DNA of 64,000 nt, from the NCBI GenBank assembly GCA_936920195.1, contig CAKZHE010000097.1, positions 1 to 64,000 of the forward strand, read 5' to 3'. The notes beneath the pieces are model-generated. The model was not told the DNA's origin, searched no databases, and worked only from the letters and a program-made list of their open reading frames with translations. Every line of letters starts with the position of its first letter. The stretch's first letter is position 1. Source of the stretch: an uncultured cyanobacterium. GTDB taxonomy: Bacteria; Cyanobacteriota; Cyanobacteriia; Cyanobacteriales; FACHB-T130. Positions 356-23,069 of this stretch are shown one piece after another. A program made the position numbers and the translations under genes.

Positions 356-652
356 TCATGCCGCACCCCTCGGATCTGACTGCTCATCTTGTGAGGGTGT
401 TTGCTCCTTTTTGGGGTATTTCCGAGTTTTTCTTTTAGGGATGTTTTCTGCATCCCTTAAATCAAATAAGTCGCCCACACCTTTGTCGAAGTAAGAGCAA
501 AGTACCTCTACCGTGCTGGTGTCAACGCGGCTGAAGTTATTTGTAAATAGACGGTTGATAGTGGTTATATCTAGGCTGGTTTCTCTGGCTAACTGCCTTT
601 GAGACAACTGCGGGTTTTTTTCTGCCATCAACACAGCAAGGCGGCAATACAT
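356..652 (-). CDS. XRE-family HTH transcriptional regulator
   Basis: A small DNA-binding protein of about 98 residues. A Cro/C1-type helix-turn-helix is visible at roughly residues 15-60, with LSQRQLARETSLDITTINRLF as the recognition region, followed by a short Lys/Arg-rich and acidic tail. An in-frame ATG three codons upstream (661) exists, but GAAGG lies ten bases before the 652 ATG and only one base before the other, so 652 is preferred. It is divergent from the gene starting at 660, the usual layout for an autorepressor. The target is unknown. Confidence 0.75.
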   Translation of the reverse strand: MYCRLAVLMAEKNPQLSQRQLARETSLDITTINRLFTNNFSRVDTSTVEVLCSYFDKGVGDLFDLRDAENIPKRKTRKYPKKEQTPSQDEQSDPRGAA

Positions 653-659
653 TTTTTTC

Positions 660-986
660 ATGCCTTCATCGTATCGATATCAGTGTGACAGGCTTGCGGC
701 TGGGACTGTTGGACGAGAGCCTGTCAGGTTAGAACAGAAGACTTTTCCTAGACATTTGAACCCAGTTTTTCGAGCATATATTGGCGATCGCTCCATCGCG
801 ATCGTATCGGCTTCCTACTACGGGATTTGGGGACATTCATTGCCGAACGGAACGCATCACTGGTCTACCCCTCAATTAGCCGCTCAAGCTGCGGCGGATG
901 AGTGGTGGGGAAGCGAGGAAATTGTAGCTACTCAAGGGCGCGAATTTGCTATTGTCCAGATCGAAAAGGATTTGACTAGATTTTAA
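660..986 (+). CDS. Hypothetical protein, 108 aa
   Basis: I do not recognise this protein. It is mixed alpha/beta in composition with no signal peptide or membrane segment. The C-terminal half (SYYGIWGHSLPNGTHHW, then AAQAAADEWW) looks like genuine protein. No convincing ribosome-binding site precedes the ATG, so the true start may be internal. It is divergent from the HTH gene at 356-652 and lies 52 bases before the next gene. Confidence 0.5.
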   Translation: MPSSYRYQCDRLAAGTVGREPVRLEQKTFPRHLNPVFRAYIGDRSIAIVSASYYGIWGHSLPNGTHHWSTPQLAAQAAADEWWGSEEIVATQGREFAIVQIEKDLTRF

Positions 987-4168: not shown

Positions 4169-4453
4169 TTACGCCAAAACCCCAGAATCAAAAAGGCGAT
4201 TCTGGAGTAAATAGCCTTCTAGCTTCCATAATTGGTTGGCAGCGTCTTCTCTAGCAAATTTTCGGCCTATTTCTATGTCGAAATTTTTGGGGTCTATACA
4301 AGCCGCCCGTCCCAAAACGGTAAACCCAGAGGGCAGTTTGTAGCTAACTGCCAACTCTTTCTCCCAGAATGTACACTCCTGAGTTTCTGCCCGATCTAGC
4401 AAGTCGTCAATTTGTTCTTTTGTAACAGTGGTAATAGGTTCCATTGCAGACAA
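4169..4453 (-). CDS. Phage N4 Gp49 / Sf6 gene 66-family protein
   Basis: Matches the pattern of this small phage family: QIDDLLDRAETQECTFWEKEL, then LPSGFTVLGRAACIDPKNFD and IGRKFAREDAANQLWKLEGYLL. The biochemical function of the family is unknown; it occurs on lambdoid, N4-like and many other phages. It is transcribed divergently from the exonuclease gene downstream. Confidence 0.75.
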   Translation of the reverse strand: MSAMEPITTVTKEQIDDLLDRAETQECTFWEKELAVSYKLPSGFTVLGRAACIDPKNFDIEIGRKFAREDAANQLWKLEGYLLQNRLFDSGVLA

Positions 4454-4495
4454 TTAATGTGGGATAAAATAATTATATCAACAATTTTCAAAGAC

Positions 4496-5380
4496 ATGGG
4501 AAAGCTCTGCACACTTGAAAATAAAGACATCAAAAAATACGATTGGTGGGGCGGCAGCAACCCACCTCCGCCCCATCTGAAAACGAAAAAGCAGTTAGCG
4601 GATATGGGGCTAAAACCTGTATCTGCCGTGGGCGTTATTGAAGCCAGAAAATATGATTTACTTCTTTACGATCCTGAAAATCCACGCTCAGTTCGCCCCA
4701 GTAAAAAGCCGACTGAAGCGCAACTCAGAAATTTAGAGAAAGGCAGGCGCAAGCAAGCGTATAAAAACTGGTTTAGGGATGAAGGGTTTATTTACCGTGA
4801 CGAAAATGAGGCGATCGCGTGGGCAAGGGAATTCGTTGCCGATCCCGATAATCTTGTTCTGGATACCGAAACAACTGGGTTCACAGATCCACAAATAGTT
4901 GAAATTGCAATATTAAATCTTCAGGGTGAAATTCTGTTCCACTCGTTAGTCAAACCTGCCAAGGAAATTGAGCCTGGGGCAGAAGCTGTTCACGGGATTA
5001 GTAACGCCGAGGTTGCTGACAAGCCTACATTCGCCGATATCTCTCCGCAATTGACAGTATTATTGACTGATAAAAAGATCGCAACTTACAACGTGGGGTT
5101 CGATTTTAGGGCTTTGGAGTGTAGTAGGCAATCCGCAAACTTGCCCCAGCCAAAGTATGAAGATCAAGAATGGGAATGTGCCATGCTCTGGTATGCACAG
5201 TTTTATGGAGAACGCAGAGGTCGCCATGGATATCGCTGGCAGCGTTTACCTTCCGCTGGTCATCGGGCAGTGGCTGATTGTTTGGCGCTAATTGATTTGT
5301 TGCGGCAAATGGCGACTACTGAACCAAGGGATCTGGGGCAATTATTTGATCGGCATTGGGAGGAAATATGCAAGAGCTAA
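4496..5380 (+). CDS. DnaQ-like DEDDh 3'-5' exonuclease
   Basis: 294 residues. A basic N-terminal region (30-100) precedes a complete DEDDh domain: ExoI DTET (D123, E125), HGISN, ExoII NVGFDFR (D203) and ExoIII HRAVAD (H256, D261). Such enzymes degrade single strands from the 3' end in proofreading or recombination. A longer reading to 4412 would overlap the divergent gene at 4169-4453; 4496 or 4457 are the plausible starts. It may act with RecT, which lacks an adjacent nuclease. Confidence 0.85.
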   Translation: MGKLCTLENKDIKKYDWWGGSNPPPPHLKTKKQLADMGLKPVSAVGVIEARKYDLLLYDPENPRSVRPSKKPTEAQLRNLEKGRRKQAYKNWFRDEGFIYRDENEAIAWAREFVADPDNLVLDTETTGFTDPQIVEIAILNLQGEILFHSLVKPAKEIEPGAEAVHGISNAEVADKPTFADISPQLTVLLTDKKIATYNVGFDFRALECSRQSANLPQPKYEDQEWECAMLWYAQFYGERRGRHGYRWQRLPSAGHRAVADCLALIDLLRQMATTEPRDLGQLFDRHWEEICKS

Positions 5381-6509: not shown

Positions 6510-9017
6510 CTAAGCCTCTGACTTCAATGTTTTGACTTCGACCAGGGCATCGCCTACCCTGATTTTGCGCCGATCCGATATTTCTTCTAGTTGAGCTAAT
6601 GCCACTCTTAAATTGACGTTGACGGGGGATGACTCGGTATAAATGTCATCAGCAAGGCTGCTGATTCCGGTGACAACTTTGGCTAGTTGTGTTGCCAAAC
6701 TCTCAGCCTTTTTAACCATCTCGGCGATGGTAATTAGAGACTCAACTTTATAAACGCCTGCGGCCTCAGTAACTGTTGCCTGTGCGGACTCTGACAGCTT
6801 CGCCAGTAAAGCGGTTTCGGCGATCGCCTTGCTGTACCTTTCCAGATCCGGGTTGATTGGTTCGCTAGTGGCCTCAATCGGTGGTTTCCAATATTTGCAG
6901 TAACTTTCCGCAGCGCGATCGCTATCTAAAAACGTAAAGCTATGTACCCCGCACTGCCGTTCGCCAGCTTCCCCGCCCTCAAAACGATGGCAGTGTTGAC
7001 AGGTGAAGCAGCTTTGCTTCTCACTGAGGATCTGGGCGGCAACTTTAAAGGCAGCGTTTACGCTCTGCTCGTTCAAAGCGTGGCGCAAACCCGCCGCCTT
7101 TGCTCTGGCTGATTCCTCCCACTCTGCCGCCTTCGGCGATTCGCCCTCCTGCGCTTCCAACTTGTCCAGCAATTCAATGATTTTTTCACCCTTGGCGAAG
7201 GTGCGCTCGCCTACCCCCGCGATATCGGCTAGTCGTTGGCGCGTGTGAAGGGTTGGCAAATTTGCCAACCCTTGTCCCCCGGCGCTCATGTTCGCTTTGG
7301 CTTCTGCCTCAATAATTGAGCGCCAAGCTTTAGCTTCGCGGAGCTTTTGCTCATCATTCTTTTCCCGCCCTTTGTTGGCTTCTAGGAGCCGTTTTAGCTC
7401 TTGTTCTGGAGTGGCAAAGCGCACCCATTTTACTTCCAGGGACTTGAAGCGGCTATCGCCTTTTGCTGTCAATCTCTCAACGCATCGATGACAGGAGTTG
7501 CCGTCAACGATGTGCCTGGTCGTGATGCTAACCACGATGGGCTTAACCCAACCGCTTTGATCGATGGTTGCCTCAAGTTCAGTTAGATCCTCTTCTCCGT
7601 AGATCTGCTCATTCAGCGGGTGTCTTATGATCTCGTCAATATTCACAAACCGGGGCAAGTCTTCGTCTGGGGCAGTCTTCAGGGAGGAAAGATCGACTGT
7701 GCCATCGTCTTTCTGAGGCAATCCCCACCGCCGATTATTTTCTCGGACGATATCTGGATTAACTGCGCCAGATGGAAGCGATACCACAGCGCTAACGGAT
7801 TCCTGCTCTGACTTGGAAGTGGGTCCGTTATGCAGCGTTTCCACCAAATCTTCTAACAGATGCTCTCCCGCCTCCGTTAGCGAAAACCCTACTGCCCCAT
7901 CTGTTTGAATAAACTTAAGCTTCAGCAGTTGCTTAAACGCCACATCTGCTGCTAATTGCTCCCATCCTAAGTTCAGGGCGATCGCCTGTTTGCTGGCTTT
8001 GTTGTTGGCCTTGATCTCCTGGAGAATCAGGATCTGCTCCTCGGTTGATAAAATCGTTGAGATACTGAATTCGGGCGATTCCAACACTGGCAACTCTGGG
8101 GTCGAGGGCGTTGCCGACTGCGGCGCGGCGTTTTCTAATGACTCCATCTCCGCTAGGAACTCCGAGGCCGATCGCTTGTCCGCTGGGTCTGTCCACCCAA
8201 CGGGAATCCCGGAGCCACTCTCCAGGAATTCCGGGTTCGATACTTCGTTGGACGCGATCGCTCCCCTCTCCTGCAAATCTTGCTCTAATCTGTTCGTGCC
8301 AGGGGGTCCGCCTTTGCCACCCATCCGGGATAATGCTGTGGGCGATTGCAACAATAAGGAGCCGCTCTCGGCTCCAGGGCGCTCCAAAGTGGGCGCTGCC
8401 GATAGTCGTCCATTCTGCATCGTACCCGACGTAGAAGAGTTCTCTGAGAAGAAATTTGAAGTATTTGATCCGGTTTCCTGGACTGATGGGGCAGGTGAGG
8501 AGTCCTGGTACGTTCTCAATTGCCACGAATTTTGGCCTGATTTCTCCGATGATTCGGATGACAGCAGGGAAGCAGTCTCGACTGTCTTCGCCTCCGAGCC
8601 GTTTTCCGGCGATCGAGAATGGCTGGCATGGGGGAGAGAATCCGCAGACATCGTACTGTCCGGGCCTCCCCCTGAAGGTGCGGATATCTCCGTGAATTGG
8701 GACTCCGGGGTATCTGAGTCTGAGGATTGACTGACAATATTCGTCCCATTCAATGAGTTGGCATAACTCCCATCCGGCTCTAGTGGCGGCAAGTTCCCAT
8801 CCGGCTCCAACTCCACTGCATCCGGTGAGGATTCGCATATATCTATACCTAGATCGTTCTTGAGTTCGTATCTGGAGTAATAGGCGGTCTTGCCATTCTT
8901 GTCGCACCGAATTTGGAAGGGCGCTTTTTTCCTCCGGGCATCGGTTTTCAGCAATGTATATCCGGGCTTCAGTTCCGTACCGGGTTTTAGATCCGACTTG
9001 TTTATGGTTAGTGTCAT
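6510..9017 (-). CDS. ParB-like nuclease-domain protein, 835 aa, hosting a nested gene
   Basis: Domain order: a short N-terminal domain (1-60); a Ser/Pro/Gly/Glu-rich disordered stretch (about 60-320); a winged-helix-like region (320-395); a ParB N-terminal domain near 455-550 (FVNIDEIIRHPLNEQIYG, IVDGNSCHRCV); a ParB-type HTH near 580-620 (TRQRLADIAGVGERTFAK); a Cys cluster near 670-710 (CFTCQHCHRF...C...YCKYW); and a helical tail. It may bind DNA for partition or regulation. The disordered stretch coincides with the methyltransferase gene read in another frame on the same strand (7933-8838). This suggests the linker arose by overprinting. It follows the RHH gene by three bases. Confidence 0.85.
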   Translation of the reverse strand: MTLTINKSDLKPGTELKPGYTLLKTDARRKKAPFQIRCDKNGKTAYYSRYELKNDLGIDICESSPDAVELEPDGNLPPLEPDGSYANSLNGTNIVSQSSDSDTPESQFTEISAPSGGGPDSTMSADSLPHASHSRSPENGSEAKTVETASLLSSESSEKSGQNSWQLRTYQDSSPAPSVQETGSNTSNFFSENSSTSGTMQNGRLSAAPTLERPGAESGSLLLQSPTALSRMGGKGGPPGTNRLEQDLQERGAIASNEVSNPEFLESGSGIPVGWTDPADKRSASEFLAEMESLENAAPQSATPSTPELPVLESPEFSISTILSTEEQILILQEIKANNKASKQAIALNLGWEQLAADVAFKQLLKLKFIQTDGAVGFSLTEAGEHLLEDLVETLHNGPTSKSEQESVSAVVSLPSGAVNPDIVRENNRRWGLPQKDDGTVDLSSLKTAPDEDLPRFVNIDEIIRHPLNEQIYGEEDLTELEATIDQSGWVKPIVVSITTRHIVDGNSCHRCVERLTAKGDSRFKSLEVKWVRFATPEQELKRLLEANKGREKNDEQKLREAKAWRSIIEAEAKANMSAGGQGLANLPTLHTRQRLADIAGVGERTFAKGEKIIELLDKLEAQEGESPKAAEWEESARAKAAGLRHALNEQSVNAAFKVAAQILSEKQSCFTCQHCHRFEGGEAGERQCGVHSFTFLDSDRAAESYCKYWKPPIEATSEPINPDLERYSKAIAETALLAKLSESAQATVTEAAGVYKVESLITIAEMVKKAESLATQLAKVVTGISSLADDIYTESSPVNVNLRVALAQLEEISDRRKIRVGDALVEVKTLKSEA
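7248..7273. repeat. 26-bp palindrome, copy 2, inside the ParB-like gene
   Basis: AAGGGTTGGCA, AATT, TGCCAACCCTT. It is coding here (QGLANLPTL) and lies just before the HTH of the ParB-like protein. It has identical arms to the copies at 258 and 14198. Confidence 0.8.
7933..8838 (-). CDS. C5-cytosine DNA methyltransferase nested in the ParB-like gene
   Basis: 301 residues in a different frame of the same strand as the ParB-like gene and entirely inside it. All core motifs are present in order: I GCSGVGAGWE (6-15), IV GFSPPCQPFS with the catalytic Cys at 71, VI AIENVPG (106-112), VIII FGAPWSRERLLIV (151-163) and X AVGNALDP (240-247). The target-recognition part is short. The ATG at 8838 puts MRIL directly before motif I. 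The ribosome-binding site is weak, so translation may depend on that of ParB. It would transfer a methyl group from SAM to cytosine in a short DNA site; the specificity is unknown. No restriction enzyme is adjacent. Confidence 0.88.
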   Translation of the reverse strand: MRILTGCSGVGAGWELAATRAGWELCQLIEWDEYCQSILRLRYPGVPIHGDIRTFRGRPGQYDVCGFSPPCQPFSIAGKRLGGEDSRDCFPAVIRIIGEIRPKFVAIENVPGLLTCPISPGNRIKYFKFLLRELFYVGYDAEWTTIGSAHFGAPWSRERLLIVAIAHSIIPDGWQRRTPWHEQIRARFAGEGSDRVQRSIEPGIPGEWLRDSRWVDRPSGQAIGLGVPSGDGVIRKRRAAVGNALDPRVASVGIARIQYLNDFINRGADPDSPGDQGQQQSQQTGDRPELRMGAISSRCGV

Positions 9018-9020
9018 GGT

Positions 9021-9212
9021 TTAAACCGATTGCTTGGCTTGTTCTGCGTCTTGTTCTGATTCCGTTCCCAGATATTTCTTGATTGCATGGAGAACCGTTT
9101 TGGTTTTGTCCCGATCGTTGCGAGCCATGTCTCTCTCGATCGCCTGACTTATAGAAATGGGCATCCAAAGCGTCATCTTTACTTGTCCAGATCTTTTAGG
9201 TCTTTTTGCCAT
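9021..9212 (-). CDS. Ribbon-helix-helix DNA-binding protein, 63 aa
   Basis: Short CopG/Arc-like protein: KMTLWMPISISQAIERDMARN gives the strand and first helix, TKTVLHAIKKYLG the second. It lies three bases upstream of the ParB-like gene, the arrangement of an RHH regulator or partition partner. It probably autoregulates; the dyad at 9240-9278 just upstream is a natural candidate operator. Confidence 0.75.
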   Translation of the reverse strand: MAKRPKRSGQVKMTLWMPISISQAIERDMARNDRDKTKTVLHAIKKYLGTESEQDAEQAKQSV

Positions 9213-13510: not shown

Positions 13511-13870
13511 ATGAACAATCACTTATTTGATGCTGATGGATTTACAAGAAGAGATATTTTGGCGCTACTCAAACGCCAGTCGGACGGACTGACCGAGAAA
13601 GAAATTGCTGAAGAAATTGGGCTGACCGTCGCCCAAACTAAGATTCACTTAAATGCTCTGGCTGCCAACCAAAAGTGCGATCGCCGGGGCAAAAGATATC
13701 GCCTAATTCCCACCTCCCATACCGAAGAAAGACTGGGGAAAAGATTAGCGATCGCGGCAGAATCACCGATTCCCCGAACCAAACTTCTTCTGCCACCAAA
13801 AGAACTTGAAAAGGAGAAGCCTAAACGCGGCAGGCCAAAGGGGGGTTATCCAAATGACCGCAGCGAATAA
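13511..13870 (+). CDS. Winged-helix protein with AT-hook-like tail
   Basis: Residues 10-60 form a winged helix (RRDILALLKRQSDGLTEKEIAEEI, TVAQTKIHLNALAANQKCDRRG). The C-terminus carries EKPKRGRPKGG, an AT-hook-like minor-groove-binding motif. It is likely a DNA-binding regulator of the element. It overlaps the next gene by 17 bases. Confidence 0.7.
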   Translation: MNNHLFDADGFTRRDILALLKRQSDGLTEKEIAEEIGLTVAQTKIHLNALAANQKCDRRGKRYRLIPTSHTEERLGKRLAIAAESPIPRTKLLLPPKELEKEKPKRGRPKGGYPNDRSE

Positions 13871-14198
13871 TCAGTCGCAGGCAAATTGCATCATCACTCT
13901 GGGCAGAACCATTAGAAATGCCCGCCGGGAGATGGGTCTTAGCCAGAGGGAATTTGCCGATTTAATTGGCGATAGCGCTAGCGCGCACGCAGGGCTTCGC
14001 CGCATCGACTTCATGCAGCTTTCCAAAATTGAAAACGATCGGATTGAGGTTCGTGACCCTAGTTACGACTGGCTGATTCAACGCCTTGCCGAAATTCTTG
14101 AAGCCGATGCCGAATACCTGGAACAACTCCGGCAACAAACCGAGCCGCAGCCGCTGAATTTAGAACAAGCATTTTTCCCGGTTTATGCAGAACTTTAA
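13854..14198 (+). CDS. XRE-family HTH regulator with a repeat-encoded insertion
   Basis: 114 residues. The HTH reads MGLSQREFADLIG, then DSASAHAGLRR, then IDFMQLSKIENDR. The middle block is encoded by a 32-bp dispersed repeat (13969-14000) inserted in frame between the two HTH helices. Without it the domain would match the canonical Cro/C1 spacing, so DNA binding may be altered or lost. The 13854 ATG inside the previous gene is preferred over an upstream in-frame ATG. Confidence 0.7.
   Translation: MTAANNQSQANCIITLGRTIRNARREMGLSQREFADLIGDSASAHAGLRRIDFMQLSKIENDRIEVRDPSYDWLIQRLAEILEADAEYLEQLRQQTEPQPLNLEQAFFPVYAEL
13969..14000. repeat. 32-bp small dispersed repeat, copy B
   Basis: Differs from copies A and C at two positions (GCGCGCACGCAGGGCTTCGC in its second half). 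It is inserted in frame within an HTH domain and adds about ten residues. Confidence 0.85.
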
Positions 14199-14223
14199 AG
14201 GGTTGGCAAAAATGCCAACCCTT
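14198..14223. repeat. 26-bp palindrome, copy 3
   Basis: AAGGGTTGGCA, AAAA, TGCCAACCCTT. It directly follows (and by one base overlaps) the stop of the HTH gene and precedes the replication-type gene at 14245. It could act as a terminator here, but the same arms also occur inside a gene, which favours a protein-binding or repeat role. Confidence 0.8.
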
Positions 14224-14244
14224 ATAGAAAAAGGATAGCGCTTT

Positions 14245-15006
14245 ATGTGGACAAAAAAACACGATCAAATCTGCCTGCAAAAAAAACTGACCGCTTCATC
14301 CTCAACGCTCCTGTGGCGATGGTTAGTGGAGCAAGGGGATGGCGAGAGAGAACCCGATTTAAAGGAGTTTAATACTTGGGTGAAAAAGCACCGGGGGCAG
14401 GGATTCCACCGGGACACCCTTAAACAGGCATTCAATAAATTGGTGGAGGCAGAAGTAATTATAGTCATTAAAGATTTTGGGTATTGGAATATTTGGCGGG
14501 TGGTGGTGAGATCTCTTGATGCTATTTTGCCTATAAAACCAAAAAAAAAGACCGGACAAAAAAAATCCGAAAGCTATGAAGTTCCCCGCGATTTAGACTC
14601 CTCAAACGCCTGTGTTGGCGAATCAGGGGTTCAAGCAGCAGCAGCTAATAATATTTCTTCTCTAGATCTGATTGGTCAACTACCAGAGGAAGAAATTAAA
14701 GATCTGGAAGAAAATTTGGATCAGTGCGATCGCGCCGGGATTCAATTTGATGCCAAAGATGCCGCAGAAATATTGACAACTTACGATCCAGAGGAATTGA
14801 GACAGGCGATCGCGCTATTTGAAAAGCGTGGTGGGCATCAGAAAATTAAAAATCCTGAAGGCTTTATCAGACGTTGTTTGGAGCGTCGCTGGTGGGAAAG
14901 TAAGCGCCCAGCTTTTGAGGATATTATCAGTGGATTGGCGGCTGTCTTTGGGTTGGCTTCCGAATCAAAATCAAAGGCTGTATTTAAGGGATTTGGCTAT
15001 GCGTAA
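14245..15006 (+). CDS. Replication-organiser-like winged-helix protein, 253 aa
   Basis: The N-terminal part (about 10-90) resembles a winged helix: KLTASSSTLLWRWLVEQG, then DTLKQAFNKLVEAEVIIVIKDFGYWNIWRVVVR. A basic linker and a disordered stretch follow. The C-terminal domain (170-235) has EELRQAIALFEKRGGHQKIKNP and EGFIRRCLERRWW, reminiscent of DnaD-like or phage replication-organiser tails. Replication initiation is an inference from this architecture and the setting. Confidence 0.55.
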   Translation: MWTKKHDQICLQKKLTASSSTLLWRWLVEQGDGEREPDLKEFNTWVKKHRGQGFHRDTLKQAFNKLVEAEVIIVIKDFGYWNIWRVVVRSLDAILPIKPKKKTGQKKSESYEVPRDLDSSNACVGESGVQAAAANNISSLDLIGQLPEEEIKDLEENLDQCDRAGIQFDAKDAAEILTTYDPEELRQAIALFEKRGGHQKIKNPEGFIRRCLERRWWESKRPAFEDIISGLAAVFGLASESKSKAVFKGFGYA

Positions 15007-15286
15007 TAATTTCCTGGAAACAATTGCCCCAGAGCGCACCTTGCCGCCTCCTGAAGTAGTTGCTCGGATTAAAGCCCATTTTAACGCGGCTCGCTCTAAT
15101 CGCAAAACGCTCAGTAGAACAGCCTTTAAAACCCTGCCTTATACCGAGCAGAATTTACAAATTGCCCGTGCTTACCTGCAATTTCCAGAATTTAAAAATC
15201 GCGCTCTTAACTGGGCAAGAAACAACTCTGAAGATGTTGAAATTATCGATCGAGATGGCGAGATCCTGATTGACGTGAGGTTTTAA
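14999..15286 (+). CDS. Hypothetical protein, 95 aa
   Basis: Overlaps the previous gene by eight bases and ends one base before nblA, so it is coupled on both sides. Helical, with EVVARIKAHFNAARSNRK and FKNRALNWARNN, then an acidic strand pair (DVEIIDRDGEILIDVRF). No family recognised. Confidence 0.6.
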   Translation: MRNNFLETIAPERTLPPPEVVARIKAHFNAARSNRKTLSRTAFKTLPYTEQNLQIARAYLQFPEFKNRALNWARNNSEDVEIIDRDGEILIDVRF

Positions 15287-15287
15287 A

Positions 15288-15497
15288 ATGAGCCAGCCCA
15301 TTCAGCCCATTGAACTTTCGATGGAACAGCAATTCAATATCTGTTCGTTTAAAACTCAGGTGCAGCAAATGAGTCACGAACAGGCTCAGGATTTTCTTGT
15401 CAAACTTTACGAACAAATGGTGGTCAGAGAGGCAACTTACAAGCAGCTTCTCAAACACCAATGGGGGATAGAAGATCCGGCTATAGAGGTTGATTGA
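15288..15497 (+). CDS. nblA: NblA phycobilisome degradation protein
   Basis: 69 residues closely matching the cyanobacterial NblA pattern: PIELSMEQQFNICSFKTQV, MSHEQAQDFLVKLYEQMVVRE and TYKQLLKHQWG. NblA is a small helical dimer that binds phycobiliprotein rods and delivers them to the Clp protease, normally during nutrient starvation. Some cyanophages carry nblA, apparently to dismantle the antenna during infection. This copy is embedded in the mobile element between unknown genes, so a viral-style role is plausible. GAGG precedes the ATG. Confidence 0.93.
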   Translation: MSQPIQPIELSMEQQFNICSFKTQVQQMSHEQAQDFLVKLYEQMVVREATYKQLLKHQWGIEDPAIEVD

Positions 15498-15500
15498 TCG

Positions 15501-15737
15501 GTGGGAAAGAAGTCAAAAATTGATCGTGATCGCCTTCGTTCCGAGGAAAATTCACGGGCTTTTCTGCTACTGAAAGATGCCGTTTTTGTCAGACATAAGA
15601 TTCGGGGCGAACGCGGTGTTGGCAAAATAACAGGAATTTATAGCAATCCCCACGGAACCTATCAGCAGATTGTGGTCGATTGGGGAAATGGGTTGTCAGT
15701 GCCGGAGTCACCGGAATTATTGGAGAAGCTGTCGTGA
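15501..15737 (+). CDS. Small SH3-like hypothetical protein, GTG start
   Basis: 78 residues. The pattern KDAVFVRHKIRGERGVGKITGIY, then YQQIVVDWGNGLSV, suggests a small beta-barrel (SH3/KOW-like). It follows nblA closely and overlaps the next gene by one base (TGATG), so it is co-translated. Confidence 0.6.
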   Translation: MGKKSKIDRDRLRSEENSRAFLLLKDAVFVRHKIRGERGVGKITGIYSNPHGTYQQIVVDWGNGLSVPESPELLEKLS

Positions 15738-16126
15738 TGAATATTAAAACGAGCAGTCTGCATTACATCGATAAAGACGATTTTGTTGTAGGAGTTAGCT
15801 TTAGATTTCGCGGCGATGATGATTTGGAGCATATCGCTTTTCACCTAGGCTCTCTAACAGTTTGCTGGGGTGTTCCCGAACCAGACTGCGCCATAAAATG
15901 CGAATCGCTGTCTTTACCAATCAGATTGCTGATTTTATTTAACGGTGGAGTTTGGTATTGGGGAAAGGCTTATTTCCCGGACTTATCAAGCCTTTATCAC
16001 TTTGCTTGGATCTGTAGAGCTTGGGAGTTAATGAATGTTTCGGAAAATTTTCTTCAAGAGACTTTGAGCGAATGGCAGGATAAATCCAAACCTAGTACAG
16101 ATATTCTAGATGAAATTCCGTTTTAA
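15737..16126 (+). CDS. Hypothetical protein, 129 aa
   Basis: Start chosen from the TGATG overlap with the upstream stop. Beta-rich N-terminus (FVVGVSFRFRGDDDLEHIAF), then an aromatic-rich helical region (SLYHFAWICRAWELM). No family recognised. Confidence 0.6.
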   Translation: MNIKTSSLHYIDKDDFVVGVSFRFRGDDDLEHIAFHLGSLTVCWGVPEPDCAIKCESLSLPIRLLILFNGGVWYWGKAYFPDLSSLYHFAWICRAWELMNVSENFLQETLSEWQDKSKPSTDILDEIPF

Positions 16127-16135
16127 GGAAGAATC

Positions 16136-16387
16136 ATGCAGGAAAAAGATAGGCGAAGATATCACGATATCTTTGAGACAAATGCTGCTACCATTACGCA
16201 CCATTACACTTTTGAGGGTAGGCAGGTAATTGAGGCAGAAACGGGCAGGGCGCTAGACATTTCCGAAGTGGTAGAAAGGCTCAATTTATTAACTGAATCG
16301 GTTCGGTATTTTGAAAATCTAGCAGAAGATCGAAAAATTCGGTTAAGAAGAATCTCGGATTTTGTTGATGCCAATGGAACGGAATAA
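16136..16387 (+). CDS. Hypothetical protein, 83 aa
   Basis: A charged, helical small protein (ISEVVERLNLLTESVRYFENL). GGAAG lies at good spacing before the ATG. Part of the rightward run that begins near 13511. Function unknown. Confidence 0.55.
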   Translation: MQEKDRRRYHDIFETNAATITHHYTFEGRQVIEAETGRALDISEVVERLNLLTESVRYFENLAEDRKIRLRRISDFVDANGTE

Positions 16388-16417: not shown

Positions 16418-17419
16418 ATGTCACAAACAACGATTGAATGGACTGATAAAACTTGGAACCCTGTTACGGGTTGTACCAAGGTTAGCGAGGGGTGCGCCCG
16501 GTGTTATGCCGAAACAATTGCTAACAGATTCTGGGGCGATCGCAAATTCTCCGATGTGCAGTTTCACGAAGATCGGTTAAAGGCTCCGGCAACTTGGAAA
16601 ACACCCTGCAAAGTGTTTGTCAATTCAATGTCGGATCTATTTCACGAATCAGTTACGTTTAAGCAAATTGATCAAATATTTGCAGTAATGGCGACGACAA
16701 ATCGTCACACTTTTCAGGTGCTGACAAAGCGACCTGAAAGGATGCTGGAATATTTTACTGATTACCTGCCCGATGTTGGTGGCTTGACTGTTTTGCACAA
16801 AGGCTCTGCAAGAGTAGCCGTAGATCTTTCTCGTTCTTTTCCGCTGCCTAATGTTTGGTTGGGAGTGTCGGTGGAAAATCAGAAAGCCGCTGATGAACGC
16901 ATTCCGCTACTACTAAGAATCCCGGCCACTGTTAGATTCTTGAGTTGTGAGCCATTGCTAGAGGATATCGATATTAAAGATTATTTGGGAGAATTCTGGT
17001 ACTGCCCAGACTGCGAGTACGACTGGAAAGAAGCCGGAGCAATGGCAAGTGGAAAGAAAAGACTCTGCGGAATTTGTGAAGCGCGGATTATCAAGGGAGA
17101 AACTGGGATTCATTGGGTGATTATCGGCGGTGAATCTGGGGATAAAGCTCGCCGTTGCTATTTGGACTGGGTGTGATCGCTAGTCCGCCAATGCAGAGAT
17201 GCGGGTGTTTCCCCCTTCGTAAAGCAACTTGGCTCTAACCCAGTTGCTGCAAGCCCCTACGTTAAGGGTGCGGGTTCCAGCGATTACCTTTATGTATTCA
17301 AGGTACGAGATAAGAAGGTACGCGATCACAAGGGCGGCGATATCACGGAATTCCCAGAAGATTTACAGATCAGAGAATTTCCGCAAGTTGCAATTAGCGA
17401 GGAGGCGGTATGTCTGTAG
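16418..17419 (+). pseudogene. DUF5131 (phage Gp37/Gp68) radical-SAM-like protein with in-frame TGA
   Basis: The first 252 codons give the family signature: EWTDKTWNPVTGCTKVSEGC with Cys at 19, 26 and 29 (Cx6Cx2C), then FVNSMSDLFHESV, VLTKRPERM, LGVSVENQ and IIGGESGDKARR. A TGA at 17174-17176 follows LDWV. The frame then continues without another stop: SLVRQCRDAGVSPFVKQLG, DYLYVFKVRDKK, HKGGDITEFPEDLQIREFP, to TAG at 17419. Relatives normally have Arg at the TGA position, so CGA to TGA is likely. It is either a nonsense mutant or read through. It overlaps the next gene by ten bases. Confidence 0.8.
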
Positions 17420-17883
17420 CTCAACTCTATCTTCCTTTCGCCCCTTATTTGGTTGTCCGCGATGGCGATCCACTGGCAGGCGCGATCGCCAATCGGCACT
17501 ACTCAAGACTGGAGCGCGGCAATACAGATCAACTTAGGTTTTGCCGCCCTGGGAAAAGATTAATACTGCTTCAGCCAGAAGGGTCCTGGTTATTCGTTTG
17601 GGTGCTTCAAAAATTTAGAAGGGATGGGCAAGTTGGTGCTGAATGCGTTTTGTTCCGCAACGAAGCGCCTAATAAGTTTTTAAGTTCAGAAATCGTTCTA
17701 TTGGCAGAAAAAGTGTGGAACGATTTGCATGGGTTTTGCCGAAAATTCACCTACGTTAATCCAAGACTTGTTCGCTCTAAAAATCCTGGTTGTTGCTTTC
17801 AAAAAGCTGGCTGGACAAAGAGCGATCGCCGAAGCAGTCGGGGGTTGATCTTGCTGTCAAAGGAGGTAGTCGCCAATGTTTAA
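17410..17883 (+). CDS. GNAT/Mom-like protein (possible DNA base modification)
   Basis: 157 residues. The pattern ANRHYSR, then GSWLFVWVLQKF, ECVLFRNE, LSSEIVLLAEKVWND, FTYVNPRLVRSKNPGCCFQKAGW is reminiscent of the GNAT-fold Mom family of phage Mu, which modifies adenine in DNA against restriction. I am not certain of this family. The neighbours are two adenine methyltransferases, which fits a DNA-modification cluster. GAGG precedes the ATG. Confidence 0.5.
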   Translation: MSVAQLYLPFAPYLVVRDGDPLAGAIANRHYSRLERGNTDQLRFCRPGKRLILLQPEGSWLFVWVLQKFRRDGQVGAECVLFRNEAPNKFLSSEIVLLAEKVWNDLHGFCRKFTYVNPRLVRSKNPGCCFQKAGWTKSDRRSSRGLILLSKEVVANV

Positions 17884-18724
17884 TCGCCCACTTCTTCGCT
17901 ACCTCGGAGGGAAATACTTGTTAAGCCCTTGGATAATTTTACACTTCCCTCTACACCAAATCTATTGCGAACCCTTCGCGGGTGGCGCGAGTGTTTTACT
18001 GAATAAGGCTCCAAGCCCCATTGAAATTTACAACGATTTGGACGGACGGCTCAACAACTTCTTTAGAGTATTGCGCGATCGCGCTGACGAACTATTGGAG
18101 AAACTTGAGTTAACACCATATTCTCGCGCTGAATATGATTTGGCTCTTTCCCCCTCCGAAGATCCTGTTGAAGATGCCCGACGACTTTATGTTCTTAGTT
18201 GGCAGTGCAGGGGCGGCGGTTATGTCGCGAACGGGGGCAGGGGATGGAGATATCAAAACAAGGATTGGGCGGGGAATGATGTTGTCAGGAATTGGCATCG
18301 ATATAGCGATCTAAGGTTATTTGCTGATCGGTTATTGAACGTCCAGATAGAGCAAGATTGTGCATTCAAAGTGATTAGTCGATATGACAGTCCAAAAACC
18401 CTTTTCTATCTCGATCCCACTTATCTGCACGAAACTAGATCTGCAAATCACAGGTGGGAATATTTCCACGAAATGACCAAGAACGATCACCAAAAACTGG
18501 CTGAATTGCTCAACTCAATTCAAGGGATGGCGATAATTAGCCATTACCCCTGCGAACTTTACGATCGCCTCTACAAAGATTGGCGGTGTATCCAAAAAGA
18601 AGTACGAACTCAAGGGCGCACAACAGCAACTGAATGCCTCTGGATAAATCCAGCCTGCGATCGCGCTTTAAATAGTCTCTTTTCGCTGCCATTGTTTGCA
18701 GGAAAACATGAGGAGGTTATTTGA
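17876..18724 (+). CDS. D12-class N6-adenine DNA methyltransferase with DPTY motif
   Basis: 282 residues. RYLGGKYLLSPWI (motif X) and YCEPFAGGASVLL (motif I, SAM binding) are normal. The catalytic motif IV reads FYLDPTYLHETR (180-183) where the family has DPPY; the second Pro is replaced by Thr. Activity is therefore uncertain. AAGGAGG precedes the ATG, which overlaps the upstream gene by eight bases. A second D12 enzyme lies 120 bases downstream. Confidence 0.85.
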   Translation: MFNRPLLRYLGGKYLLSPWIILHFPLHQIYCEPFAGGASVLLNKAPSPIEIYNDLDGRLNNFFRVLRDRADELLEKLELTPYSRAEYDLALSPSEDPVEDARRLYVLSWQCRGGGYVANGGRGWRYQNKDWAGNDVVRNWHRYSDLRLFADRLLNVQIEQDCAFKVISRYDSPKTLFYLDPTYLHETRSANHRWEYFHEMTKNDHQKLAELLNSIQGMAIISHYPCELYDRLYKDWRCIQKEVRTQGRTTATECLWINPACDRALNSLFSLPLFAGKHEEVI

Positions 18725-18921
18725 CCGAGGAATATTGCAACTGCAAAGGCGCTTTGATTTTCGCCAACCCGAACAGCCCTAAAATTGATTATTTAGTTAG
18801 ATGCTCCGTCTGCGGCAAAATTTACCCAATTTTTAACCCCAATTATGACAGCCATCGCAGAGAAAGAACAAGAACCCGCATTGCAAGATCCGCACCCTTT
18901 CCTAAAGTGGGCGGGCGGTAA
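18721..18921 (+). CDS. Small Cys-rich peptide, TTG start
   Basis: 66 residues from a TTG preceded by GAGGAGG. CNCKGALIF and VRCSVCGKIYPIF suggest a small zinc ribbon. The last third overlaps the next methyltransferase gene in another frame and has low-complexity Arg/Thr content, so only the first 45 residues look convincing. Confidence 0.4.
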   Translation: MTEEYCNCKGALIFANPNSPKIDYLVRCSVCGKIYPIFNPNYDSHRRERTRTRIARSAPFPKVGGR

Positions 18922-19726
18922 GAATGGCTTACTTAGACAATACCAGCCCTACTTCCCCAAAGAATTCAGAACTTACTTTGAACCCTTCTTAGGCGGTGGT
19001 GCAGTATTTTTTCATCTACTACCAGAAAAAGCGTTTCTTTCTGACATTAATTTTGAACTTGTCAACGCTTATCAAGTAGCGGTCTTTGATCTTGATAAAT
19101 TGATATCACTCTTAACAGAACATCAGAGCAACCATTCTCCCGAATATTACTCCCAAATCAGAGGGTGCAACCCTGGCGATCTAATCGAGAAAGCAGCGCG
19201 ATTCATTTACCTAAACAAAACTTGTTTCAATGGAACGCACAGGGTTAACAAAAAAGGAGAGTTTAATACCCCAATTGGGCGCGATAGCGCTAGCGCGCTC
19301 GCAGAGCTTCGCAATGGTCATTCTCAATATGTTTGCGATGTTGATGGGTTGAAATCTGCTTCCTTGGCTTTAAGGAAATCTGCATATCTTGATACCAGTG
19401 ATTTTACCCTAGTGGAAAGCACGGCAGAAAAAGGCGATTTTGTCTACTTTGACCCGCCGTATCACCCAGTTAGCGAAACGGCGAAATTTACCAGTTACTC
19501 AGCGAGCGGATTCGATAAATGCGACCAAATCGCTTTAGCCGCTGTGTTTAAGTCCCTTGCCGAACGCAAGGTGAAAGTCATGCTCTCTAACTCTGATTGT
19601 CCGTTTATTAGGGAGTTGTACAAAGGATTTGAAATCGTGTCAATAAACGCCGCTAGATCGATCAACTCTGATGGGCAGAAACGTGGCAAGGTTGGTGAGA
19701 TTTTAGTTGTCGCAAATTGTAATTAA
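18845..19726 (+). CDS. Dam-like D12-class N6-adenine DNA methyltransferase
   Basis: 293 residues. PFLKWAGGKNGLL (motif X), YFEPFLGGGAVFFHLLP (motif I) and YFDPPYHPVS with a canonical DPPY at 203-206 are all present, as are FIYLNKTCFNG and TKFTSYSASGF-type segments. By family it methylates adenine, probably in GATC-like sites. Residues about 146-157 (RDSASALAELRN) are encoded by the dispersed repeat at 19281-19312, inserted in frame after NTPIG in a loop between motifs. Confidence 0.9.
   Translation: MTAIAEKEQEPALQDPHPFLKWAGGKNGLLRQYQPYFPKEFRTYFEPFLGGGAVFFHLLPEKAFLSDINFELVNAYQVAVFDLDKLISLLTEHQSNHSPEYYSQIRGCNPGDLIEKAARFIYLNKTCFNGTHRVNKKGEFNTPIGRDSASALAELRNGHSQYVCDVDGLKSASLALRKSAYLDTSDFTLVESTAEKGDFVYFDPPYHPVSETAKFTSYSASGFDKCDQIALAAVFKSLAERKVKVMLSNSDCPFIRELYKGFEIVSINAARSINSDGQKRGKVGEILVVANCN
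19281..19312. repeat. 32-bp small dispersed repeat, copy C
   Basis: Identical to copy A at 6114-6145. It is inserted in frame within the Dam-like gene, in a part of the protein that varies in the family, which may explain why it is tolerated. Confidence 0.85.
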
Positions 19727-21521: not shown

Positions 21522-22598
21522 CTATTTGCCTTTCATCAACTCCCAAGCCTGCCTACTATCTATCTCATTAAGCCATTTCAGGTAATGTTTGCAATGTGTA
21601 CCAATGGAATGCCCCATCCACTGAGCGACAATTGCCGGACTACATCCCGCGATCGCACACCTAATTGCGTAGCGATCGCGCAATCCGTAGGGAGTGAATT
21701 TTATTTTAGGGTGGTCGTAAAAATACGAGGAGATTTTTGCTCCTAAGTCTTTATTCAAAGTCCCTGGCTTATTTTTAAAGTTAGGGAAAATAACTTTTTC
21801 TAGCTCCCAATCTTTACACCAGTTGGTCGGCACGGGCAGAACTAATCGTTTGCCAGTTTTGGTATTTTCCTTTACTCTGAGAGTGTCGTTGGCAAGCTCG
21901 GTGGTGTCTAGGTGGAATATTTCGTGATCTCTAATCCCAAAAGTTGCTAATATTCCAAAAACCCACCGCCAAGCCGGATTAGCAATCGCTTCTCTGGCCT
22001 CTAAAATTTCCTCATCGCTGGGGATATGCCGATCTCCCTTGGCCTTATACCCCTTCCCCAACGGCCTTAAATTGCACTCCAGCCCAGCAAAATTAGCAAG
22101 ACATTGGTAAGCGGTGGTCAAATTTACTCGTTTCCGCGTCTCAGCTTGGCTTTGAGAAAGGATCGTTGCTCGCAACACAGATTCCGAGAGCGGACTGGAT
22201 GAAGGGAGGAAATTAAAAGGAGTACGGTAATTTTCTTGCCAAGTAGACTGTTTGCCTAGGTCACTCCGATTGCGACTGCTCCAGTAATCCTCCTCAAATT
22301 TGTCCAACCAGTCCCCTATCGTTTCTGGTGGCTTTTGCTTGCCCTTGAGAAATAAACTCCAGTCAAACCGCTCCCTAAGTAGCAAACCCTCAATTTCCAT
22401 CGCCTTGCCCTTCGCGATCGCCAGTCCCTCCGGAGAAAATGGCGCACCAGTGCTAATCTCGTATTGTTTGGGGCTATCGCCATCATCCGGCTTTGGTGGC
22501 AAGGTTGCCCGTAGGTAAAGTCTGCCTCCTTTTTGTCTAATCGTCACTCTATCCAAAGCATCGTTGGCTTTCTGTAACGCAGATTCCAGCTTCCCCAT
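21522..22598 (-). CDS. Tyrosine-family site-specific integrase
   Basis: 358 residues. The N-terminal arm and core-binding parts are followed by a catalytic domain: Arg I in FGIRDHE (R223), a Lys in the beta-hairpin (KTGK, about 247-250), LRDR box (R307), H330 in MGHS and the nucleophile Y339 in KHYLKW. The first His of the usual HxxR box is Tyr (YGLR). It catalyses integration and excision of the element. Its 5' end faces tRNA-Ser 103 bases away, the usual layout at an attachment site. Confidence 0.9.
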   Translation of the reverse strand: MGKLESALQKANDALDRVTIRQKGGRLYLRATLPPKPDDGDSPKQYEISTGAPFSPEGLAIAKGKAMEIEGLLLRERFDWSLFLKGKQKPPETIGDWLDKFEEDYWSSRNRSDLGKQSTWQENYRTPFNFLPSSSPLSESVLRATILSQSQAETRKRVNLTTAYQCLANFAGLECNLRPLGKGYKAKGDRHIPSDEEILEAREAIANPAWRWVFGILATFGIRDHEIFHLDTTELANDTLRVKENTKTGKRLVLPVPTNWCKDWELEKVIFPNFKNKPGTLNKDLGAKISSYFYDHPKIKFTPYGLRDRYAIRCAIAGCSPAIVAQWMGHSIGTHCKHYLKWLNEIDSRQAWELMKGK

Positions 22599-22700
22599 CT
22601 CCCTAAACCTTCCCTAAAAAAGGGTAGTAATTTGCTATAACTTGTTACTACAAATTACTGCTTTCACGAGGGAAAGTAAAGGCTAGAACCTTGAATTGAA

Positions 22701-22789
22701 CGGAGAGGCAGGGATTTGAACCCTGGAGGAGGCAAAAACCCCCTAACAGATTAGCAATCTGCCGCTTTCGACCACTCAGCCACCTCTCC
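22701..22789 (-). tRNA. tRNA-Ser(GCU)
   Basis: Read on the minus strand, GGAGAGG pairs with CCTCTCC. The D-arm GGCTGAGTGG, anticodon loop TTGCTAA (GCT), a long serine-type variable arm and T-loop GGTTCAAATCC are all present. The 3' end lies toward the integrase, so it is the probable integration target of the element. CCA is not encoded. Confidence 0.95.
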
Positions 22790-23069
22790 AGTGACATAGA
22801 TTTTTATGATAGCAGGTTTTTGGCTCAGAAGCTAGAAATTAAAATTTTTATTTTCGGTTCGGTGCAGTACGGAAAACCGTACTTTGATAAGACACCTTAG
22901 AAAGCGTTAGGGCGCAGAAGTATTTCCAATAACAGATGCTTATTAGCAGGAAATCTGTTGATACTGAAAATCATTACTTGATTAAAAACTGTTTGTGTTG
23001 ACGAGAAGCCAGTGCAAAGTTAATCCTTTGCGGAATTCTGGCTGTTGCTATCCTGTACCTAGAAAAATT

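Follow-up and report, generated by a model that had tools for sequence, protein, structure and literature searches.

A phage-like element integrated at tRNA-Ser(GCT) of an uncultured cyanobacterium carries an nblA gene most likely taken from its host lineage

Introduction

Previous descriptions of phage-encoded nblA concern mainly lytic cyanophages, whose gene is divergent and of unclear host source (PMC4103541). In the Microcystis phages Ma-LMM01 and MaMV-DC and their relatives, NblA is encoded within an early-type gene block, which in MaMV-DC places it between genes for ribonucleotide reductase; expression of the Ma-LMM01 gene is early and exceeds that of the host nblA about 20-fold (PMC4103541), and expression of phage nblA in cyanobacteria causes loss of phycobilins (PMC9602691). 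A resident element may also affect pigmentation by other means, as in Synechococcus elongatus PCC 7942, where a prophage in a tRNA-Leu gene, flanked by an exact 60-bp att duplication, affects phycocyanin content through two other genes and has no nblA (PMC9239245). Finally, plasmids of Nostoc and Chroococcidiopsis bear nblA on mobile or extrachromosomal DNA. Our literature search, the coverage of which was incomplete, returned no earlier account of an element integrated in a tRNA gene that carries nblA alongside the chromosomal parent of that gene.

Here we analyze a 64-kb stretch of contig C97 of an uncultured cyanobacterium (hereafter, the window), in which an nblA gene is part of such an element. 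As in the Microcystis phages, the gene lies in a block with element genes and, as in PCC 7942, the element sits in a tRNA gene. The differences are that the Ma-LMM01/MaMV-DC genes represent a divergent lineage (about 30-32% identical) whereas the copy described here is of the host lineage and on an integrated element, and that this element, unlike the PCC 7942 prophage, carries nblA itself.

Results and discussion

Integration site and extent of the element

The features that define the element are the following.

1-22761: right-hand part of the integrated element, with its left-hand end on contig C267 and its middle on unlinked contigs
21522-22598, minus strand: tyrosine integrase, 358 aa, adjoining the tRNA (phrog_1 integrase, 5.3e-15; Pfam Phage_integrase, 7.6e-5)
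22695-22761: attachment core, 67 bp, with an exact second copy at G000:C267:225-291
22700-22790, minus strand: tRNA-Ser(GCT), the integration target (ARAGORN; tRNA-glycosyltransferase synteny in family genomes)

The Pfam match of the integrase falls below the curated cut-off, and the R-K-YxxR-H-Y residues are readable by eye in its sequence. The tRNA-Ser(GCT) is the sole tRNA in the window, and a search of the same genome with the tRNA region showed that its 3' part recurs exactly over 67 bp on C267, followed by unrelated sequence. This copy is the expected second attachment site, the two ends of the element being on two separate contigs (C97 and C267). Five other genomes of the family have conserved chromosomal genes, and no integrase, on the 3' side of tRNA-Ser, and the same glycosyltransferase adjoins the tRNA wherever one contig spans both. 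These conserved surroundings indicate that the right flank is ordinary chromosome and that the element is an insertion.

The left flank was rearranged, since the ancestral left-hand neighbor gene was found mid-contig on C265, beside an argininosuccinate-synthase-like gene; for the same reason, an attempt to join the 3'-flank chromosomal gene to C267 failed. Further, C97 starts inside a TnpB-like reading frame (identified by eye) and the end of C267 is an inverted copy of its own start, which indicates that the assembly broke at repeats and that the middle of the element is missing.

Alternatively, the region could be ordinary chromosome with a duplicated nblA, the phage-like genes being unrelated remnants, and the close relationship of this copy to the host's own nblA (below) would fit such a scenario. 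We regard this as very improbable and already contradicted by the integrase at the tRNA with its 67-bp att copy, by the five relatives lacking an integrase at this tRNA, and by a gene beside nblA (a 155-aa frame) that was found only in its own genome among the 195 searched, i.e., is absent from the other 194. Hence, as judged from this anatomy, nblA is carried on an integrated element, as the original prediction had proposed.

Gene content of the element

The following genes were recognized between the contig start and the integrase.

356-661, minus strand: CI/Cro-type HTH repressor (Pfam HTH_26, 1.9e-10; a 46% identical relative on the IMG/VR phage G388)
1805-2608, plus strand: RecT-family annealing protein (match found in the protein scan)
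4412-5380, plus strand: 3'-5' exonuclease (match found in the protein scan)
7933-9168, minus strand: C5-cytosine DNA methylase, the true frame, overlapping the start of an 835-aa ORF
13511-13870 and 13854-14198, plus strand: two HTH regulators, directly upstream of the nblA block
14245-16387, plus strand: packed nblA gene block, with gaps of -8 to +9 nt
15288-15497, plus strand: nblA, element copy (69 aa; PF04485 match; nearest relative, the nblA on contig C73 of the same genome)
16418-17176, plus strand: DUF5131/phrog_2045 protein
17876-18724 and 18845-19726, plus strand: two D12-class adenine DNA methylases

Positions 1-22761 also encode a ParB-like protein, an ASCH protein and many unknowns. 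The claim that nblA sits among phage-like genes is therefore well founded (integrase, RecT, 3'-5' exonuclease, CI/Cro-type regulators, DUF5131 and DNA methylases). The 835-aa ORF at 6510-9017 (minus strand) was considered as an element marker and discarded: the matches at its N terminus are shadows cast by the C5-methylase frame that overlaps it, and the ORF was split, its C-terminal part being ParB-like. The proteins scanned from the first 22.7 kb of C97 included no recognized capsid, portal, tail or terminase, and no virion structural or packaging genes were recognized on C267. Searching the whole-element DNA against phage and plasmid collections returned no match, the genes next to nblA, used as probes, returned one distant plasmid relative, and a 253-aa gene near nblA had no viral relatives. 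With no virion genes recognized on the assembled part and the middle on unlinked contigs, possible identities of the element include a satellite, an island and a degenerate prophage.

A canonical NblA protein

The interval 15288-15497 (plus strand) contains exactly one ORF (ATG to TGA), with the 69-aa product MSQPIQPIELSMEQQFNICSFKTQVQQMSHEQAQDFLVKLYEQMVVREATYKQLLKHQWGIEDPAIEVD. This product matches the Pfam NblA profile PF04485 over its whole length (1-50 of 50) with an E-value of 1.5e-24 and 86.7 bits, the curated cut-off being 25 bits, and a PDB comparison aligned its residues 6-63 without gaps to the solved NblA 1OJH (E-value 1.1e-27). In the latter alignment, L54 and K56 are the equivalents of L51 and K53 of Anabaena NblA, the C-terminal Leu and Lys that bind phycobiliproteins and are needed for phycobilisome binding. 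That is, the protein has the features of the family (about 60 aa of helix-loop-helix, gap-free against a solved NblA, C-terminal Leu/Lys kept). Its description as canonical in the original prediction agrees with both the profile match and the structural alignment, and the ORF encodes a full-length, canonical NblA. A chance ORF is not a viable explanation, because silent differences from the chromosomal copy far exceed amino-acid-changing ones (about 22.5 vs. 6.5 over 55 codons).

Origin of the element copy

A search of 388 genomes of the order found the closest match to the element NblA in the same genome, encoded on contig C73 (93% identity over 58 aa); the next best reached 86%. The C73 gene lies beside an stp phosphatase gene and a small membrane-protein gene, as in most of the cyanobacterial loci fetched, and we interpret it as the vertically inherited chromosomal locus. 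A DNA tree of the codon region placed the element and C73 genes in one clade (support 98/96), nested in a wider group that includes the closest chromosomal nblA copies of the family (96/90). In a smaller DNA tree with the long-branched phage sequences L062 and L063, the exclusive element-C73 pair was not recovered but was not rejected either (p-AU 0.39). A phage origin through L063 was considered as well and not retained: L063 stands beside the element NblA in the protein tree (100/74), but on a long branch, and elsewhere in the DNA tree.

The two genes of this genome differ at about 18% of nucleotides, with a dN of 0.05 and a pS of 0.75, i.e., silent sites are saturated, which indicates that the capture was not recent and that the protein has been kept by selection. 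The element protein differs from its C73 counterpart by an N-terminal duplication of QPI and a different C-terminal tail. Taken as a phylogenetic result, the most likely origin of the element's nblA is the chromosome of this host lineage. The link to freshwater cyanophage nblA that had been suggested does not hold, since the element protein is only about 32% identical to those of Ma-LMM01/MaMV-DC and its gene groups with the host C73 copy at the support given above. It had also been reasoned that tight grouping with the host's own chromosomal nblA in an otherwise chromosomal neighborhood would refute a mobile copy; the tight grouping (with C73) was indeed found, whereas the neighborhood is that of an integrated element.

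In a related genome with three intact nblA genes, a decayed nblA-like sequence with three stops was also observed (L025; G003:C8:145217-145354).

Operon setting and control

The nblA block comprises genes at 14245-15006, 14999-15286, 15288-15497 (nblA), 15501-15737, 15737-16126 and 16136-16387, and nblA is separated by 1 nt from the upstream gene and by 3 nt from the downstream one. The C73 gene is of the same lineage but differs in its long leader, NtcA-like site and conserved chromosomal neighborhood: its leader is about 460 bp, with one GTA-N8-TAC site at -277, a single such site being weak evidence of NtcA control (six occur in the 64-kb window). The element copy is without a leader, and no GTA-N8-TAC is present in the 2.5 kb upstream of it. 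A packed operon with no leader of its own means that expression of this nblA is most likely tied to transcription of the element. That is, judging from the anatomy, the element's own transcription most likely drives the gene.

It is conceivable that nblA is a chance passenger with no role for the element, as small genes may hitch-hike. Such a passenger would not be expected to show few amino-acid changes against saturated silent sites or translational-type spacing on both sides, nor would nblA be expected to recur on unrelated IMG/VR phage contigs, and we assign this scenario a low probability, slightly above that of a chromosomal duplication.

Other mobile carriers of nblA

Four IMG/VR contigs, G388 (L062), G389 (L063), G390 (L065) and G391 (L066), encode nblA at 59-73% identity to the element copy amid phage genes. 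G388 spans 97.5 kb and carries genes for terminase, baseplate, endolysin and tail fibres, as well as an nblA 70% identical to that of the element, a CI-like repressor 46% identical to that in the window, and an integrase that begins at the first base of the contig and is 33% identical to the window integrase over its full length. G389 combines nblA with a large serine recombinase and a terminase. These contigs are metagenomic with no known host, and their genes reflect different captures or a much longer divergence than that seen here. By gene content, nblA on integrase-bearing cyanophages is a recurrent arrangement. Plasmid NblA proteins are 51-63% identical and, in the examples compared, their genes are mostly separated from neighbors by gaps, unlike the packed element copy. 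On the plasmid side, nblA was seen on several Nostoc, Chroococcidiopsis and Kovacikia plasmids (H3-H15), four of which (L148-L151) constitute a separate clade of the protein tree.

These comparisons bear on a rival view of the element as a genomic island or a phage satellite that keeps nblA as host-beneficial cargo (e.g., an extra dose for acclimation) rather than as a lytic-cycle tool. No capsid, tail or terminase was recognized in the 22.7 kb or on C267, the nblA-bearing Nostoc plasmids mean that non-phage mobile nblA exists, and the protein is under purifying selection, all of which would be consistent with cargo. The absence of virion genes is, however, not established, since the middle of the element is missing; further, nblA lies in a packed element operon without its own promoter region, and G388, the nearest mobile counterpart to encode a related integrase, is a tailed phage. 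Hence, we consider the cargo explanation unlikely, albeit the most serious of the alternatives discussed here.

Proposed explanation and significance

Instead, we favor, as reasonably probable, the hypothesis that a host-lineage nblA was captured by a temperate phage-like element at tRNA-Ser(GCT), is controlled by that element, and serves to dismantle the antenna upon derepression. Under this hypothesis, the temperate phage-like element would integrate at the 3' end of tRNA-Ser(GCT) by site-specific recombination, and the element or its ancestor would have captured nblA some time ago from a cyanobacterial chromosome of the same lineage. The captured gene would have lost its nitrogen-responsive promoter region and been built into a packed operon just downstream of two HTH regulators, so that derepression of the element genes would produce NblA whatever the nutrient state. 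NblA would then link phycobilisomes to ClpC, leading to degradation of the antenna, and this breakdown may free amino acids and lower excitation pressure during replication of the element. Of this scenario, the analysis shows the intact protein, the site of integration, the origin in the host lineage, the embedding in an operon and selection on the protein, while we infer the repressor control, when nblA is expressed and what the element gains from it; that NblA triggers antenna breakdown once the element is active is likely. Phage-encoded nblA is already known; the gene described here is most likely an element-controlled antenna-dismantling gene.

More tentatively, integrase-bearing cyanophages may repeatedly acquire nblA from the hosts they infect and bring it under control of the phage, with lysogens gaining a second, nitrogen-independent bleaching switch, a generalization that we consider possible but doubtful. 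If true, antenna dismantling would be part of prophage induction.

A single genome displays the putative donor lineage together with the parent copy on the chromosome and the site of integration, which makes capture, promoter replacement and function directly testable, and the two nearly identical NblA proteins under what appear to be different controls offer a direct comparison. The element also represents a concrete candidate for a resident element that alters host pigmentation, to be compared with the S. elongatus prophage that acts without nblA (PMC9239245).

Candidate further contigs and a shared palindrome

One additional feature lies in the gap before the nblA block.

14198-14224: palindrome AAGGGTTGGCAA-N2-TTGCCAACCCTT (variant)

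Other element copies are at 258-284 and 7248-7274. In total, the element holds three copies of this 26-bp palindrome or a close variant, C267 one, which adjoins the attachment site (L011, about 380-405), C324 four (L177/L178) and C186 two (L242). The rest of the window lacks it, as do the other stretches of this genome examined, including 39 of 40 sampled contigs. Possible readings are a mobile palindrome, a hairpin or an operator. Its use as a repressor operator was rejected, with one copy inside a coding sequence and others downstream of genes, and the palindrome was kept as a marker only.

C324 encodes a small and a large terminase, and its 35 ORFs include 10 with relatives on G391, an IMG/VR contig that bears nblA. 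No contig-end overlap joins C324 to C97 or C267, the ties of C324 to the element being the shared palindrome and gene families common to nblA-bearing IMG/VR contigs. This pattern suggests that C324 and C186 may be part of the same element as nblA. C99 was considered as the source of the element's terminase and excluded as a separate, apparently Mu-like prophage. Its segment L176 (C99:36001-56000) encodes a MuB-like ATPase, a transposase-like protein, a small and a large terminase and head genes, all of these roles except the terminase being assigned by eye. Finally, an N-terminal stretch resembling AVAGSNGTAKGTAKGSKSAGG recurs in six proteins that otherwise differ and may represent a shared targeting tag or repeated leader; five of the proteins are encoded on L177 (C324; at about 6972, 9027, 15222, 17237 and 17924, minus strand) and one on L242 (C186; 5013, minus strand).
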